Shown here: positions 2,395-7,030 of the stretch, piece after piece
Layout of the letters: the number at the start of each line of letters is the position of its first letter
Position numbering within the stretch: position 1 is the first letter of the stretch
Assembly (NCBI GenBank): GCA_913776795.1
Contig: CAJYRH010000316.1
Coordinates: 1 to 7,415, forward strand
Length of the DNA: 7,415 bases
Direction: 5' to 3'
Origin: an uncultured Pseudorhodoferax sp.
GTDB lineage: Bacteria > Pseudomonadota > Gammaproteobacteria > Burkholderiales > Burkholderiaceae
Translations under genes and position numbers: made by a program
The notes under the pieces: model-generated
What the model saw: only the letters and a program-made list of their open reading frames with translations
What the model was told of the DNA's origin: nothing
The model's database searches: none

Positions 2395-3632
2395 CCACGA
2401 CGACCACCACCTACGACGCATTGGACCGCTGGGTCGACGCGCATTTCGACGAGCAGGTCCGCTTCCTGCAGGCCCTGGTGCAGGTGCCGACCGACACGCC
2501 GCCCGGCAACAACACGCCGCACGCGCTGCGCACGGCCGCGCTGCTCAAGGACTTCGGCTTCGAGGCGCAGGCGCACGAGGTGCCGGCCGCCACCGTGCAG
2601 GAACACGGCCTGCAGTCCATCACCAACCTCGTGGTGCAGCGCCGCTACGGCAAGGGTGGCCGCGTGGTCGCATTGAACGCCCACGGCGACGTGGTGCCGC
2701 CCGGCGAAGGCTGGACGCACGAGCCCTACGGCGGCGAGGTTGTGGACGGCAAGCTCTACGGCCGCGCCGCGGCCGTCAGCAAGTGCGACTTTTCCACCTT
2801 CAGCTTCGCCACGCGCGCGCTGGAGGCGGCCGGCGTGCCGCTGGCCGGCGGCGTCGACCTGCTGTTCACCTACGACGAGGAGTTCGGCGGCGAACTCGGC
2901 CCGGCCTGGCTGCTGGAGAAGGGCATCACGAAGCCCGACCTGGAGATCGCGGCCGGCTTCAGCTACCAGGTCGTGACCGCCCACAACGGCTGCCTGCAGC
3001 TGGAGGTGACGGTGCACGGCAAGATGGGCCACGCGGCCGTGCCCGAGACCGCGGTCGACGCGCTGCAGGCCGCCAACCGCATCCTCACCGCGCTGTACGC
3101 CGAGAACGGCGAGCTGCGCAAGACCAGGAGCACCGTGGAAGGTATCCACCACGGCTACATCAACGTGGGCCAGATCCACGGTGGCACCAACACCAACGTG
3201 GTGCCCGGCAAGGTGGTGCTCAAGGTCGACCGCCGCATGATTCCCGAGGAAGACCCGGTGGCCGTCGAAGCCCGGCTGCACAAGCTGATCGAGGAGGCTG
3301 CTGCAGGCCAGGCCGGCATTTCGGTGGAGATCAAGCGTTTGCTGCTGGCTCACGCGATGAAGCCGCTGGCCGGCAATGCGCCGCTGGTCGAGTCTCTGTG
3401 CGGCCATGCCACGGCCCTGTTCGGCGAGCCCGTGAAGGCCTCTGGCACGCCGCTGTACACCGATGCGCGGCTGTTCAGCGAGCGCGGCATTCCGGCCGTG
3501 ATCTACGGCGCCGGCCCGCGCACCGTGCTCGAGTCCAACGCCAAGCGGGCCGACGAGCACATCGTGCTGGAAGACCTGCGCCGCGCCACCAAGGTGGTGG
3601 CGCGCACGCTGTACGACCTGCTCAAGGCCTGA
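2391..3632 (+). CDS. M20-fold peptidase/deacylase-like hydrolase with altered metal site
   Basis: A 413-residue protein of the M20 (ArgE/DapE/acetylornithine deacetylase-like) fold. The start overlaps the previous stop as ATGA, and the N-terminus has six consecutive Thr. Recognisable elements are NAHGDVVPPGEGW (96-108, first ligand His98 and Asp100), LYGRAAAVSK (122-131), TYDEEFGGE (160-168, Glu163/164), the dimerisation-domain stretch VHGKMGHAAVP (208-218), GGTNTNVVPGK and VDRRMIPEE (about 264-287), and YTDAR (356-360). Several positions that normally bind zinc seem changed. Val129 stands where the bridging Asp is expected, Lys385 (in NAKRADEH) where the last His is expected, and Ala/Phe near 188-190 where a Glu is expected. 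Asp133 and His390 are nearby and might substitute. As last gene of a ureide operon it may process a downstream ureide or N-acyl compound, but the substrate cannot be read from sequence. The fold is certain; that it is an active metallohydrolase is not. Confidence 0.85.
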   Translation: MTTTTTTYDALDRWVDAHFDEQVRFLQALVQVPTDTPPGNNTPHALRTAALLKDFGFEAQAHEVPAATVQEHGLQSITNLVVQRRYGKGGRVVALNAHGDVVPPGEGWTHEPYGGEVVDGKLYGRAAAVSKCDFSTFSFATRALEAAGVPLAGGVDLLFTYDEEFGGELGPAWLLEKGITKPDLEIAAGFSYQVVTAHNGCLQLEVTVHGKMGHAAVPETAVDALQAANRILTALYAENGELRKTRSTVEGIHHGYINVGQIHGGTNTNVVPGKVVLKVDRRMIPEEDPVAVEARLHKLIEEAAAGQAGISVEIKRLLLAHAMKPLAGNAPLVESLCGHATALFGEPVKASGTPLYTDARLFSERGIPAVIYGAGPRTVLESNAKRADEHIVLEDLRRATKVVARTLYDLLKA

Positions 3633-3662
3633 GCCGGCCAGCGCGCACCTGGCAGCCCACTT

Positions 3663-3699
3663 AAGGCGGCTGCAGGCTCCGGCCTGCAGCCGCCTTTTT
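3663..3699 (+). terminator. Strong intrinsic terminator of the ureide operon
   Basis: A perfect inverted repeat: arms GGCGGCTGCAGGC (3665-3677) and its reverse complement (3682-3694) around a TCCG loop, followed by five T at 3695-3699. Two A-T pairs extend the stem to 15 bp. It begins 30 bases after the stop of the M20 gene, so it should end the ureide transcript and insulate the monooxygenase gene downstream. No T-run suits termination from the opposite strand as well. Confidence 0.93.
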
Positions 3700-3753
3700 C
3701 GCTTTCTGCAGCGGCGGCCGCATCAGCGCATGGCCGCATGGCCGTATGTGCGA

Positions 3754-3776
3754 ATAAGCATCTGCGGAAAGCTTCG
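3754..3776 (+). promoter_or_regulatory. Possible LysR-type regulator site upstream of the monooxygenase promoter
   Basis: This AT-richer patch in an otherwise very GC-rich region contains AAGC (3756-3759) and GCTT (3771-3774), an interrupted dyad with an 11-base spacer, within AATAAGC...AGCTTCGTTGG. It lies immediately upstream of the candidate -35 box, where an activator would sit. The ATAAG...TTCGTT layout reminds me of elements in front of sulfate-starvation genes controlled by CysB-like regulators, but this is recollection and inference, not a scored match. Confidence 0.3.
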
Positions 3777-3805
3777 TTGGCCGGTGGCAGCCACCTTCGA
3801 ACAAT
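3777..3805 (+). promoter_or_regulatory. Candidate sigma70 promoter for the leader/monooxygenase transcript
   Basis: TTGGCC (3777-3782, 4 of 6 to TTGACA) and AACAAT (3800-3805, 4 of 6 to TATAAT) are separated by exactly 17 bases. Transcription would start near 3812, leaving about 50 bases before the leader ATG. A perfect dyad GGTGGC-A-GCCACC (3783-3795) lies between the two boxes and could be an operator. Since the ureide operon ends in a strong terminator, the downstream gene needs its own promoter in this gap. Confidence 0.4.
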
Positions 3806-3823
3806 CGCCTTCTGCGCACCCAG

Positions 3824-3840
3824 CACCGCCGCCGGCGGTG
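3824..3840. repeat. Inverted repeat in the leader region
   Basis: CACCGCC (3824-3830) and GGCGGTG (3834-3840) form a 7-bp GC-rich stem with a 3-base loop, ending 10 bases before the leader Shine-Dalgarno sequence. GGTGGCAGC at its right edge (3837-3845) repeats the GGTGGCAGC at 3783-3791. There is no T-run, so it is not a terminator. It could be an mRNA structure or protein-binding site, or chance in GC-rich sequence. Confidence 0.35.
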
Positions 3841-3850
3841 GCAGCGCGCC

Positions 3851-3855
3851 AGGAG
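3851..3855 (+). promoter_or_regulatory. Strong Shine-Dalgarno site of the 18-codon upstream ORF
   Basis: AGGAG is placed 5 bases before the ATG at 3861. It is the best ribosome-binding site in this part of the window, and it serves the short upstream ORF, not the monooxygenase, whose own ATG at 3919 is preceded by no good match. This is the main evidence that the short ORF is translated. Confidence 0.65.
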
Positions 3856-3860
3856 ACCAC

Positions 3861-3917
3861 ATGCCCCATTTCCTCTTGCGGCAGCACGCGCGCTGCCAAG
3901 CCTTGCCGAGCGCCTGA
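3861..3917 (+). CDS. Putative 18-residue leader peptide coupled to the monooxygenase gene
   Basis: Reads MPHFLLRQHARCQALPSA and stops with TGA at 3915-3917, one base before the ATG of the monooxygenase (TGACATG). It has an excellent Shine-Dalgarno sequence, while the downstream gene has a weak one, so ribosomes finishing the leader would be well placed to reinitiate on the enzyme gene. The peptide is basic, with two Arg and two His, and has one Cys at position 12 in HARC. It has no signal peptide or TM segment and is too small for an enzyme. Its role is most likely in cis, as a translational leader or sensor of amino-acid supply. A Cys-sensing or sulfur-sensing role is an inference from the Cys and the class of enzyme downstream. 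It could also be a chance ORF, but the combination of start signal and stop placement makes that less likely. Confidence 0.55.
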   Translation: MPHFLLRQHARCQALPSA

Positions 3918-3918
3918 C

Positions 3919-5271
3919 ATGGCCCGCCGCCAATTGCGCCTGGGCGCTTTCATCATGGCCACCGGCCACCACATCGCGGCCTGGCGGCACCCGGGCTCGC
4001 AGATCGACTCGGGCGTCAACATCGACCACTACATCGAAGTCGCGCAGACGGCCGAGCGCGGGCTGTTCGACCAGGTCTTCGTGGCCGACAGCCCCGGCAT
4101 CGGCTTCCGTGGCGACGAGGAGGCGCTGCGCCGCCAGGGCCGCGTGTCCTACTTCGAGCCGGTCACGCTGTGGGCCGCGCTGTCGGCCGTCACCAAACAC
4201 ATCGGCTTCGTCGCCACCGCGTCGACGACCTACGAAGACCCCTACCTGCTGGCGCGCAAGTTCGCCTCGCTGGACCACATCAGCAAGGGCCGGGCGGCCT
4301 GGAACGTGGTGACCACGAGCGCCGACAACGTACACGGCAACTTCGGCCTCGACGCGCACCCGGACCCGGCGCTGCGCTACGAGCGCGCCCACGAGTTCGT
4401 GCAGGTGGTCAAGGGCCTGTGGGACAGCTTCGAGGACGACGCCTTCGTGCGCGACGCGGCCTCGGGCGTCTACTTCGACCCGGCCAAGCTGCATGCGCTG
4501 AACCACGTGGGCAAGCACTTCCGGGTCAAGGGCCCGCTGAACCTGGAGCGCCCGCCGCAGGGCTACCCCGTGATCGTGCAGGCCGGCTCGTCCGAGGATG
4601 GCAAGGAACTCGCTGCCGCCACGGCCGAGGCCATCTTCACGGCCTGGACCAGCCTGGCCGAGGCCCAGGCTTTCTACAGCGATGTGAAGGGCCGGATGGC
4701 GCGCTACGGCCGCCGGCCCGAGCAACTGCTCGTGCTGCCCGGCATCTCGCCCGTGGTCGGCCGCACCGAAGAGGAGGCGCAGGCCAAGTGGGCCGAACTG
4801 CAGGCGCTGATCCATCCGGCGGTGGGCCTGGCCGCGATCGCGCCGTTCTGGCCTGGCGAGGACCTCACCCGCTGGGACCCGGATGCGCCCCCGCCGTACA
4901 TCCCCGAGGCGCCCAAGGGCATCCGGAGCCGTGCCCAGGTCGTGCTGGAGCTGGCCCGGCGCGAGCGTTTCACCGTCCGCCAGCTCTACGAGTACTTGGC
5001 CGGCGCGCGCGGCCACTGGGTGGTGGTGGGCACGCCCGCGCAGATCGCCGACCGCATGCAGGAGTGGTTCGAGAACGGCGCGGCCGACGGCTTCAACGTG
5101 ATGCCGCCCGTCCTGCCGGCCTCGCTGAACGACTTCGTCGACCTGGTGGTACCGGAACTGCAGCGGCGCGGCCTGTTCCGCACGGCCTACGAAGGCCGCA
5201 CGCTGCGCGAGAACCTGGGGCTGGAGCGGCCGGCGAACGCCTTCGCGCAGGCGCGGCGCGAGGCGGCGTGA
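3919..5271 (+). CDS. NtaA/SnaA/DszA-type FMN-dependent monooxygenase (LLM class)
   Basis: A 450-residue bacterial-luciferase-like monooxygenase, the usual length of the NtaA/SnaA/SoxA(DszA) family, which uses reduced FMN from a separate flavin reductase and O2. Family marks in order: LRLGAFIMATGHHIAAWRHP (7-25), the FDQVFVADSP strand (50-59), TSTY-like flavin-pocket segment ATASTTYEDPYLLARKFASL (99-118), GRAAWNVVTT (124-133), QAGSSEDGKELAAATAEAIF (221-240, phosphate-binding region), and the C-terminal HWVVVGTPAQIADRM (366-380), GADGFN-like ADGFNVMPPVLP (389-400) and LRENLGL (429-435). The same frame is open back to 3730, but the homology begins at the ATG at 3919, so that start is chosen. Known members attack nitrilotriacetate, EDTA, dibenzothiophene sulfone and S-(2-succinyl)cysteine derivatives; the substrate here cannot be told from sequence. 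No flavin reductase or transporter is beside it. Expression probably depends on the upstream leader ORF. It is separated from the ureide operon by a terminator and is convergent with the next gene. Confidence 0.92.
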   Translation: MARRQLRLGAFIMATGHHIAAWRHPGSQIDSGVNIDHYIEVAQTAERGLFDQVFVADSPGIGFRGDEEALRRQGRVSYFEPVTLWAALSAVTKHIGFVATASTTYEDPYLLARKFASLDHISKGRAAWNVVTTSADNVHGNFGLDAHPDPALRYERAHEFVQVVKGLWDSFEDDAFVRDAASGVYFDPAKLHALNHVGKHFRVKGPLNLERPPQGYPVIVQAGSSEDGKELAAATAEAIFTAWTSLAEAQAFYSDVKGRMARYGRRPEQLLVLPGISPVVGRTEEEAQAKWAELQALIHPAVGLAAIAPFWPGEDLTRWDPDAPPPYIPEAPKGIRSRAQVVLELARRERFTVRQLYEYLAGARGHWVVVGTPAQIADRMQEWFENGAADGFNVMPPVLPASLNDFVDLVVPELQRRGLFRTAYEGRTLRENLGLERPANAFAQARREAA

Positions 5272-5356
5272 TCAGGGCCGGTTGCCTGTCGGCTGCCGCA
5301 AGGTCAGCCATGTGCCGGTGCGTTTGCCGAACACGGCCCCGGCAGCTCGCGCACCG

Positions 5357-5370
5357 CGCGCTTCGGCGCG
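5357..5370. repeat. Small UUCG-loop hairpin in the convergent spacer
   Basis: CGCGC-TTCG-GCGCG forms a 5-bp stem with a stable UUCG tetraloop, in the 160-base gap between the monooxygenase and the oppositely oriented diguanylate cyclase. There is no T-run on either strand, so it is not a classical intrinsic terminator, but it could slow polymerase or protect 3' ends. The rest of the gap (5272-5431) shows no gene that I can support. Confidence 0.3.
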
Positions 5371-5431
5371 ACCGCGCAACGCGGCATGGCGCGCACACGC
5401 GGGTCGGCTGCTGTTCCTGCCGCGCGCACGC

Positions 5432-7030
5432 TCAAGCGCTGACGCCGACCTGGTTGCGGCCCCTGCGCTTGGCCTCGTAGAGCGCGTCGTTGGCCGCCTT
5501 GACCAGGGCCTGCGCAGTGTCCTGCGGGCCGGGCACCACAGCGGCCACGCCCAGGCTGATGGTCACCTTGCCAGCGACCACGGCCGCGTGGGGAATGTCC
5601 ATGCCCGCCACCGCCATCCGCGCCGACTCCGCCTTCAAGGTCGCGCCCATCAAGTCGGTCTGCGGCAGCAGCAGCACCATCTCCTCGCCGCCGTACCGCG
5701 CCACGAAGTCCCCGGGGCGCTGCACGGTGGCACGCAGCGCCGCGGCCACGCGCCGCAGGCATTCGTCGCCCTCGACATGGCCGTAACGGTCGTTGTACTT
5801 CTTGAAGTCGTCCACATCGACCATCACCACCGCCAACATGCCGCCATCGCGTTGCGCCTGCCGGAACACGCTCGCCAGCCGGCGGTCGAAGTAGCGCCGG
5901 TTGGGCAGCCGCGTGAGGTCGTCGATGCGCGCGAGCGACGCCAGCCGCTCGTTGGCGATCGTCAGCGCATCGCGGGTTTCGCGCAGTCCGGCTTCCGCTT
6001 GCAGGCGTTGGGCGATGGTCCGCCGGGTGTAGCTGCCGGCGCGCTCCAGCAGCAGGCACAGGAACACCACCCAGGCAGTCTGCAGCAGCGAGTTGATACG
6101 CCAGTTGCGCAGAACCGCGCTCTTGCTGGCTGCCACCGTGGTTTGCAACGGGTAGTTGCGCGCATGCTCGAAACTGTACAGCCGCACCACGCCGTCCAGC
6201 GGCGAGGGCGTTTCGGCCGCGCCCGAGCGCTGGGCTTCCATCAGCGCGCGTGCGGGGGACGGCGGCAGCGGCTTGCCGATGTCGGCCTCCAGGAACGGGT
6301 TGCGCACGACCATGCGGCCCGACAGCGTGAGCAGCATCGCGCCCTCGCCGACGTCGAAGCGCTCCAACAGGCTGCGCAGGTGGCGCACGCTGAGCGTGGC
6401 CAGCGCCACGCCGGCGAAGTTGCCGTCGACGTCGTTCAGGCGGCGCGAGACCGGCACCACCCATTCGCCCGAGGATCGGCTCAAGATGGGCGGGCCCACC
6501 AGCGTGGCGGCGCTGCGGCTTTCGCGGTGGTGGACGAAGTAGCTGCGGTCGGCGTTGTTCCAGGTGCTGTCCCAGCGCGGCTCGGAGGTGGCCACCCACG
6601 CGCCTCGCGCGTCGTACACGAACAGCCCGCGGATCTGCTCGGCCCGCGCCACGTGGCTGACCAGGGTGGGCTGCAGGTGTTCCAGCGCGGAGTGGGACAG
6701 GCCGGAACGGTCGAGTTCCTCGACGAGGCCGTCCAGGATGTGGTCTGCCTCGGAGACCGAGCTTTCGATGCGCTCCATCACCGCCCGTGCCAGGTTGGTG
6801 TTGGCCAGGTGTGCCTGTGCCAGGGCGTGTGCGCGTGCGTCGACGATCAGCCAGACATTGGTCGCCAGCAGCGCCAGGCAGACGAAAACCACCAGCAGCC
6901 AGGCACGCCGGATCTGGTCGCGTGCGGGTGCGGGCGCATCCGGCATGGCGAGCGGGGCCATGTCGCTGAAGGCCGACGCCGCTGGCGCATCGTTCTGCGG
7001 TGGGTGAAGAGCGCCTTTCCTGATGGGCAT
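5432..7030 (-). CDS. Membrane diguanylate cyclase with Cache-like sensor (GGDEF)
   Basis: A 532-residue protein from the ATG at 7030 that should make cyclic di-GMP from two GTP. Order: a proline/alanine-rich cytoplasmic N-tail, TM helix about 44-63 (WLLVVFVCLALLATNVWLIV), a periplasmic Cache-like sensor of about 250 residues with RSYFVHHRES and GEWVVPVSRRL, TM helix about 313-329, a short coiled-coil-like linker, and GGDEF from about 368. The catalytic domain has DDLTRLPNRR, the metal-binding Asp405 region in MVDVDDFKKYNDRYGH, and the signature RYGGEEM (445-451). RPGD at 438-441, five residues before the signature, is a proper I-site for product inhibition. The last signature residue is Met where Phe is usual; the catalytic Gly-Gly-Glu-Glu is intact, so activity is expected. 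No EAL or HD-GYP domain follows. The start is uncertain: an in-frame GTG at 7057 adds 9 residues, neither start has a good Shine-Dalgarno sequence, and an ATG at residue 24 (MAPLAMPD) is possible. The ligand of the sensor is unknown. Confidence 0.9.
   Translation of the reverse strand: MPIRKGALHPPQNDAPAASAFSDMAPLAMPDAPAPARDQIRRAWLLVVFVCLALLATNVWLIVDARAHALAQAHLANTNLARAVMERIESSVSEADHILDGLVEELDRSGLSHSALEHLQPTLVSHVARAEQIRGLFVYDARGAWVATSEPRWDSTWNNADRSYFVHHRESRSAATLVGPPILSRSSGEWVVPVSRRLNDVDGNFAGVALATLSVRHLRSLLERFDVGEGAMLLTLSGRMVVRNPFLEADIGKPLPPSPARALMEAQRSGAAETPSPLDGVVRLYSFEHARNYPLQTTVAASKSAVLRNWRINSLLQTAWVVFLCLLLERAGSYTRRTIAQRLQAEAGLRETRDALTIANERLASLARIDDLTRLPNRRYFDRRLASVFRQAQRDGGMLAVVMVDVDDFKKYNDRYGHVEGDECLRRVAAALRATVQRPGDFVARYGGEEMVLLLPQTDLMGATLKAESARMAVAGMDIPHAAVVAGKVTISLGVAAVVPGPQDTAQALVKAANDALYEAKRRGRNQVGVSA

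Follow-up and report, generated by a model that had tools for sequence, protein, structure and literature searches.

An 18-codon frame before a monooxygenase gene in Pseudorhodoferax, probably the relic of a deleted RutE-like reductase gene

The monooxygenase gene in the DNA analysed here, a stretch of 7,415 nucleotides from an uncultured Pseudorhodoferax species (the window), is directly preceded by an 18-codon open reading frame (ORF). This ORF is probably the remnant of a gene for a RutE-like malonic semialdehyde reductase, and probably feeds ribosomes to the enzyme by termination-reinitiation, its peptide sequence having no role. By alignment to relatives, the start of the ORF, comprising the upstream region, the Shine-Dalgarno (SD) sequence and the ATG as far as about position 3872, is homologous to the start of an intact reductase gene. 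We infer that the ORF is translated, that ribosomes reinitiate after it and that selection has kept its frame. The elements concerned are the following.

3851 to 3855, forward strand: AGGAG SD sequence with a 5-base spacer to the ATG at 3861, from alignment and duplex energy.
3861 to 3917, forward strand: 18-codon ORF, read from the alignment of its first 12 bases as what is left of the start of a lost RutE-like reductase gene.
3919 to 5271, forward strand: gene for an NtaA/DmoA-family FMN-dependent monooxygenase of 450 amino acids (TIGR03860, PF00296).

Direct reading of the small ORF gives ATG at 3861, MPHFLLRQHARCQALPSA, TGA at 3915-3917, a single C at 3918 and the ATG of the enzyme at 3919. 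The original prediction was correct in assigning AGGAG, with its 5-base spacing, to the 18-codon ORF and in placing the stop of this ORF one base before the enzyme. It was also right that the enzyme lacks a good ribosome-binding site, the SD:anti-SD duplex energy being -7.4 kcal/mol for the small ORF versus -2.2 kcal/mol for the enzyme. The window thus has the layout of a ribosome-delivery ORF, with a strong upstream initiation site and a weak site of the enzyme's own. When positions 3769-3918 were shuffled 4000 times with dinucleotides preserved, a frame of 8 or more codons that is led by an SD and stops no more than 4 bases from the enzyme start appeared twice, and one that stops no more than 10 bases away three times, so that the arrangement of SD, ORF and enzyme is unlikely to be due to chance. 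It is accounted for by descent from a coupled gene.

The monooxygenase matches TIGR03860 with 593.5 bits (cutoff 279.7) and also PF00296. Among solved proteins, the nearest to it in sequence are YtnJ/MoxC, a nitrilotriacetate-family oxidoreductase, DszA and dimethyl-sulfide monooxygenase, and EDTA, hexachlorobenzene and riboflavin-lyase enzymes also belong to the solved relatives. Because these have mixed substrates, the substrate of the monooxygenase is not fixed by likeness. Scanning with the enzyme sequence brought up 321 stretches encoding a relative, and the best 80 of these 321 loci were used. The nearest relatives are Pseudorhodoferax sp. Leaf265 (genome G001, locus L001), Leaf274 (G002, L002), P. 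aquiterrae (G003, L003) and, by record name, Variovorax boronicumulans DE0202 (G004, L004), each with 96% identity in the best protein segment. All four match the enzyme from residue 1, on an ATG, which supports the start at 3919. A fifth relative, G008 (locus L135), was added from a search of 6 genomes of the genus Pseudorhodoferax. The upstream stretch with the SD precedes the enzyme in five of these six genomes; in the exception, G005, the enzyme lies elsewhere. The start could be scored in 78 of the 80 loci, using the best SD among nearby in-frame ATGs and hence with a bias toward strong values. The enzyme's SD is as weak as, or weaker than, -2.2 kcal/mol in 11 of the 78; a poor SD is therefore not rare for this enzyme.

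The record names of L004 and of L028, L034 and L056 (Variovorax, and metagenome-assembled genomes named as Chitinophaga, Moraxellaceae and Planctomycetota) seem at odds with their sequences, which are close to Comamonadaceae loci; G004 falls in the genus of G001. These records are probably misnamed or misbinned, judging by sequence similarity. In four of the 80 loci, which were inspected (L024 2018-2971, L005 1849-2970, L051 166-1287 and L043 1270-2121), relatives of the enzyme lie near genes for a TauD-type dioxygenase, an NMT1-like receptor or an ABC transporter, neighbors that resemble sulfonate-type operons. A plasmid search matched five records, all at 60-80% identity to monooxygenase genes, and a plasmid origin was rejected.

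The region upstream of the small ORF is shared with the five relatives. The part of the window between about 3750 and 3872, which takes in GCGCCAGGAG as well as the start codon, aligns to them at 78-80% where it is scored alone. The match up to 3872 with the start of the 198-codon reductase gene is 80% from 3754 in L001 and 79% from 3750 in L003, and in L002 it forms part of a longer match. Within the first 12 bases of the window ORF, counted from the ATG, 9 are identical to those of the relatives. In G001, G002 and G003 the SD GCGCCAGGAG, the same as that of the window, starts the RutE-like reductase. Loss of the SD from relatives, one result that the original prediction had listed as speaking against it, is not observed; the SD is conserved, as that of the old gene. 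Three further elements lie upstream.

3663 to 3696, forward strand: intrinsic-terminator-like site with a 15-pair stem, a 4-base loop and a T-rich tail (0.4 expected in shuffles).
3753 to 3805, forward strand: promoter-like stretch AATAAGC...AAGCTTCGTTGG...AACAAT, conserved in the alignment of the window and the five relatives.
3824 to 3841, forward strand: GC-rich near-palindrome CACCGCCGCCGGCGGTGG in the presumed 5' UTR, just before the SD, with few changes across the five relatives.

The terminator-like site is predicted to close the upstream M20 amidohydrolase unit and to separate the monooxygenase transcript from it. The stretch 3753-3805 probably holds a promoter, in which -35 and -10 elements can be read by eye as TTGGCC (3777-3782) and AACAAT (3800-3805), separated by 17 nt, and the transcript would start near 3812, a position likewise estimated by eye; a consensus promoter scan returned no promoter at its threshold, this stretch included. 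Across the 260-base upstream regions of the 80 enzyme genes, CTTCGTT, a motif of sulfur-type promoters, is present 4 times versus 2.3 expected, which is no clear excess. The near-palindrome, possibly a structure or a protein site, is a local hairpin in the predicted folds of L001, L002 and L135 and is absent from the minimum-energy fold of the window. In the latter (positions 3811-3948, -59.3 kcal/mol, a single predicted fold to which no weight is given) the 5' UTR pairs with the region of the enzyme start, unlike in the relatives. In a sample of 299 genomes of the family searched with window positions 3740-3960, 58 match something at E 0.001, but the long upstream match is found only in G001, G003 and G004, the other matches being short pieces. 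G002 and G008 are not among the matches listed for this sample and were presumably not drawn. One such piece, a 54-base, 84% match of G083 to the second half of the leader, lies inside a 435-codon open frame and was taken as a chance product of GC-rich sequence.

The surroundings of the gene pair vary. In L001 the M20 gene and the reductase are separated by an azurin gene (1573-2028; TIGR02695, 193.9 bits), and L003, L004 and L135 have a similar frame at this position. L002 retains an apparent 3' end of the azurin gene at about 2180-2255, and the window has no azurin gene at 3633-3700. After the enzyme, G004 (L104 6280-11340) has about 5 kb encoding a LysR regulator, a TctC receptor, an FAD oxidase and an HGLS-family protein, with similar frames in G002. 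This 5 kb is absent from the window (5272-5434), where the enzyme nearly touches a convergent GGDEF gene. At 616-2394 the window encodes a fused OHCU decarboxylase / allantoate amidohydrolase-type protein, and an adjoining frame at 5-613 looks by eye like a polysaccharide deacetylase; the two together resemble a purine/ureide unit.

In G001, G002 and G003 the conserved ATG opens a 198-codon RutE-like reductase gene. The G002 protein matches malonic semialdehyde reductase (PRK05365) with 278.1 bits (cutoff 152) and the nitroreductase family PF00881 of Pfam. The gene ends in GTG TGA TGG, so that its stop overlaps the ATG of the enzyme by one base (TGATG). In G001 and G003, 190 bases lie between the reductase stop and the enzyme, and the pair is therefore not coupled there by a close stop and start. 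This stretch (2808-3000 in both L001 and L003) supplies the enzyme with an SD of its own, GGAAGG, and would break the coupling; it is missing from L004, which the joint tree described below places as sister to L003. The two remaining relatives carry shortened, in-frame versions, both ending in TGATG. The G008 version has 78 codons; 190 of its first 200 bases match the reductase, as do 33 of the final 34 when the span is taken to include the enzyme ATG. The version in G004 has 25 codons, with 20 of the first 23 and 25 of the last 29 bases matching, and 28 unplaceable bases between. The window is the extreme of this shortening, at 18 codons, and only its start region can be placed on the reductase.

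Positions 3873-3918, the inner 46 bases of the ORF in the window, were compared with parts of the reductase in four genomes, with P values of 0.02-0.32 in dinucleotide shuffles over 12 comparisons. With mononucleotide shuffles, P was 0.01-0.02 when the target was the initial 90 bases of the L002 gene and 0.28 when it was the final 75. For the leader against reductase codons 15-28, dinucleotide P values were 0.02-0.03 for L002 and L135 and 0.12-0.19 for L001 and L003, higher with longer targets, and mononucleotide P values were 0.01-0.02. As a piece of the reductase C-terminus the leader gave P 0.17-0.28, and comparison of the window ORF with the reductase at the peptide level found nothing (P 0.40-0.43). 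Since the inner 46 bases have no convincing alignment, the claim of descent is confined to the start region and does not extend to the remainder of the ORF or its stop; the stop would be that of the old reductase. Each of G001, G002, G003, G004 and G008 carries one or more further RutE-like genes (48-58% identity), so that loss of the reductase may be tolerable. RutE-like genes also occur near the monooxygenase on the opposite strand in L028 (4603-5181, minus strand, 72%) and L034 (6925-7341, minus strand, 55%), and their position within a few kilobases hints at a wider functional link.

The original prediction also proposed, as its weaker idea, that the small ORF is a regulatory leader peptide sensed during translation, by Cys- or sulfur-responsive stalling or attenuation. 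The strong SD, the short frame and the abutting stop would suit such a leader, and some of the solved enzyme relatives are organosulfur enzymes by name (Dibenzothiophene desulfurization enzyme A, dimethyl-sulfide monooxygenase). However, the peptide is absent from the five close relatives, and the start of the ORF is the start of the deleted RutE-like gene. None of the five relatives' frames contains a Cys, and the window has a single Cys codon. The 80 loci and the window were searched for an SD-like string followed by 10-45 codons with the pattern [RKQ]H[AVSGT]RC, which was matched by the window only. Thus the HARC element, which the original prediction singled out for a check of conservation, is found in no SD-led short ORF of this type in the 80 loci, the four nearest included, nor in G008. 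The looser pattern H.RC has six matches in other loci, none of them directly before the enzyme. Furthermore, an Rfam search of the window returned no family at threshold, and no terminator-like site follows position 3696 in the scanned stretch 3600-3960, 3697-3960 being free of such sites. Polycysteine leaderless attenuator ORFs are known in mycobacteria. The window ORF is like them in being a short Cys-containing ORF before a possibly sulfur-related gene, but it has one Cys, is SD-led, is not conserved and belongs to an unrelated organism. Sensing of Cys or sulfur was rejected on the lack of conservation of the peptide, a result that the original prediction itself had listed as refuting, and of its Cys, and a sensing leader of any such kind is now extremely improbable.

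It could also be supposed that the short ORF is ancestral and that the reductase was inserted recently into a pre-existing leader ORF. The outgroup G005, which has no reductase before its monooxygenase, fits this order of events. Against it, G008 and G004 retain 5' and 3' ends of the reductase around differing deletion points, which loss explains, and the sister species of G004 has a complete reductase gene; we regard the insertion as very unlikely. When M20 and enzyme DNA are joined for one tree, G004 groups with G003 and its intact gene (96% support), the window lies outside G001-G004 (56%) and G008 outside that, near the base (88%). The enzyme tree also pairs G003 with G004 (95%) and places the window beside G002 at 26%, whereas the M20 tree does not pair G003 and G004; the trees from either gene alone are poorly resolved. 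Since G004 is sister to the intact G003 and G008 branches near the base, the losses look independent, and three separate losses of the reductase are the simplest reading of these trees.

Among simulated random deletions of the L002 gene, a fraction of 0.337 left a frame that terminates no more than 10 bases from the start of the enzyme. All three short alleles keep the frame, for which the chance is therefore about 0.04, or about 0.11 without the window; the figure rests on six sequences, and a P of 0.04 is weak. Toward the 3' end of the L002 gene, which is intact, neither of the two alternative frames runs into a stop near the beginning of the enzyme. The retention of frame in three of three alleles suggests selection for coupling. 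Conceivably, although we lean somewhat against it, the upstream reductase was lost three times in this one genus, each time in frame, and selection on the enzyme made the dying cistron a pure ribosome-delivery ORF of 78, 25 and 18 codons. Three alleles are too few to establish such a repeated route from decay to a coupling ORF. The same observations bear on a simpler alternative, in which the ORF is a pure deletion scar: it descends from the reductase start, its frame was kept by chance, and the enzyme is initiated independently despite its weak SD. The chance figures for survival in frame, about 0.04 for three alleles and 0.11 for the two clear ones, leave room for this, as do the 11 of 78 scored relatives with an enzyme SD as poor or poorer and the finding, in the part of PMC6728339 available, that reinitiation in Escherichia coli pairs mostly wants an SD. 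On the other hand, all three short alleles are in frame, and the window's enzyme SD of -2.2 kcal/mol is weaker than the -5.5 to -5.9 kcal/mol of the five relatives, yet the -7.4 kcal/mol SD and the adjacency persist. We consider a pure scar unlikely, though less so than the insertion.

On the preferred reading, that of a decayed cistron delivering ribosomes, the reductase gene once lay directly before the monooxygenase and was probably translationally coupled to it. An internal deletion would have taken nearly the whole reductase and spared the promoter stretch, the 5' UTR, the SD, the ATG and a reading frame whose stop lies a single base ahead of the enzyme. The strong SD would load ribosomes, which after 18 codons and a stop would begin anew at the neighboring enzyme start with its poor SD, the sequence of the peptide playing no part. 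The distance from stop to start is +1 in the window, -1 in L002, L004 and L135, and +190 in L001 and L003. Distances of -8 to +10 nt, a range that includes the window's, are treated as predictive of termination-reinitiation in the accessible part of PMC10666635, where coupling in E. coli and Haloferax pairs is described as strongly dependent on distance. The portion of PMC6728339 at hand reports that removal of the second gene's SD substantially lowered reinitiation in four of five E. coli pairs, one pair being uncoupled. Given this dependence and the window's poor enzyme SD, reinitiation could be inefficient. In L002, L004 and G008 the SD of the enzyme is better, at -5.7 to -5.9 kcal/mol, and coupling may therefore be dispensable there. 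The coupling put forward in the original prediction remains plausible in view of the one-base overlap in G002 and of the three shortened alleles that keep the frame from SD to enzyme; that it operates in the cell, we infer.

The window resembles the termination-reinitiation pairs of these two partially available papers (PMC6728339, PMC10666635) in its one-base gap between stop and start and its strong upstream SD, and L002, L004 and L135 have the classic one-base overlap TGATG. It differs from them in that the upstream cistron is an 18-codon remnant, not a protein gene, and that the second SD is poor. Short ORFs proposed solely to deliver ribosomes are described in a review (PMC12548453, in the part available); their layout and proposed role are identical to those in the window, but for the window ORF the origin of the start is traceable, to a metabolic gene that has decayed and of which relatives show intermediates. 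A search of the literature by title or beginning of abstract, of incomplete coverage, found no report of decayed genes kept as coupling ORFs.

The layout is real, the mechanism ordinary and the origin informative. An SD-led 'leader ORF' can be a fossil and not a sensor, and five close genomes are enough to overturn the idea of sensing. If the coupling is true, the genus would be a natural deletion series showing how much of an upstream cistron keeps a coupled gene translated, and it would inform how new upstream ORFs arise.
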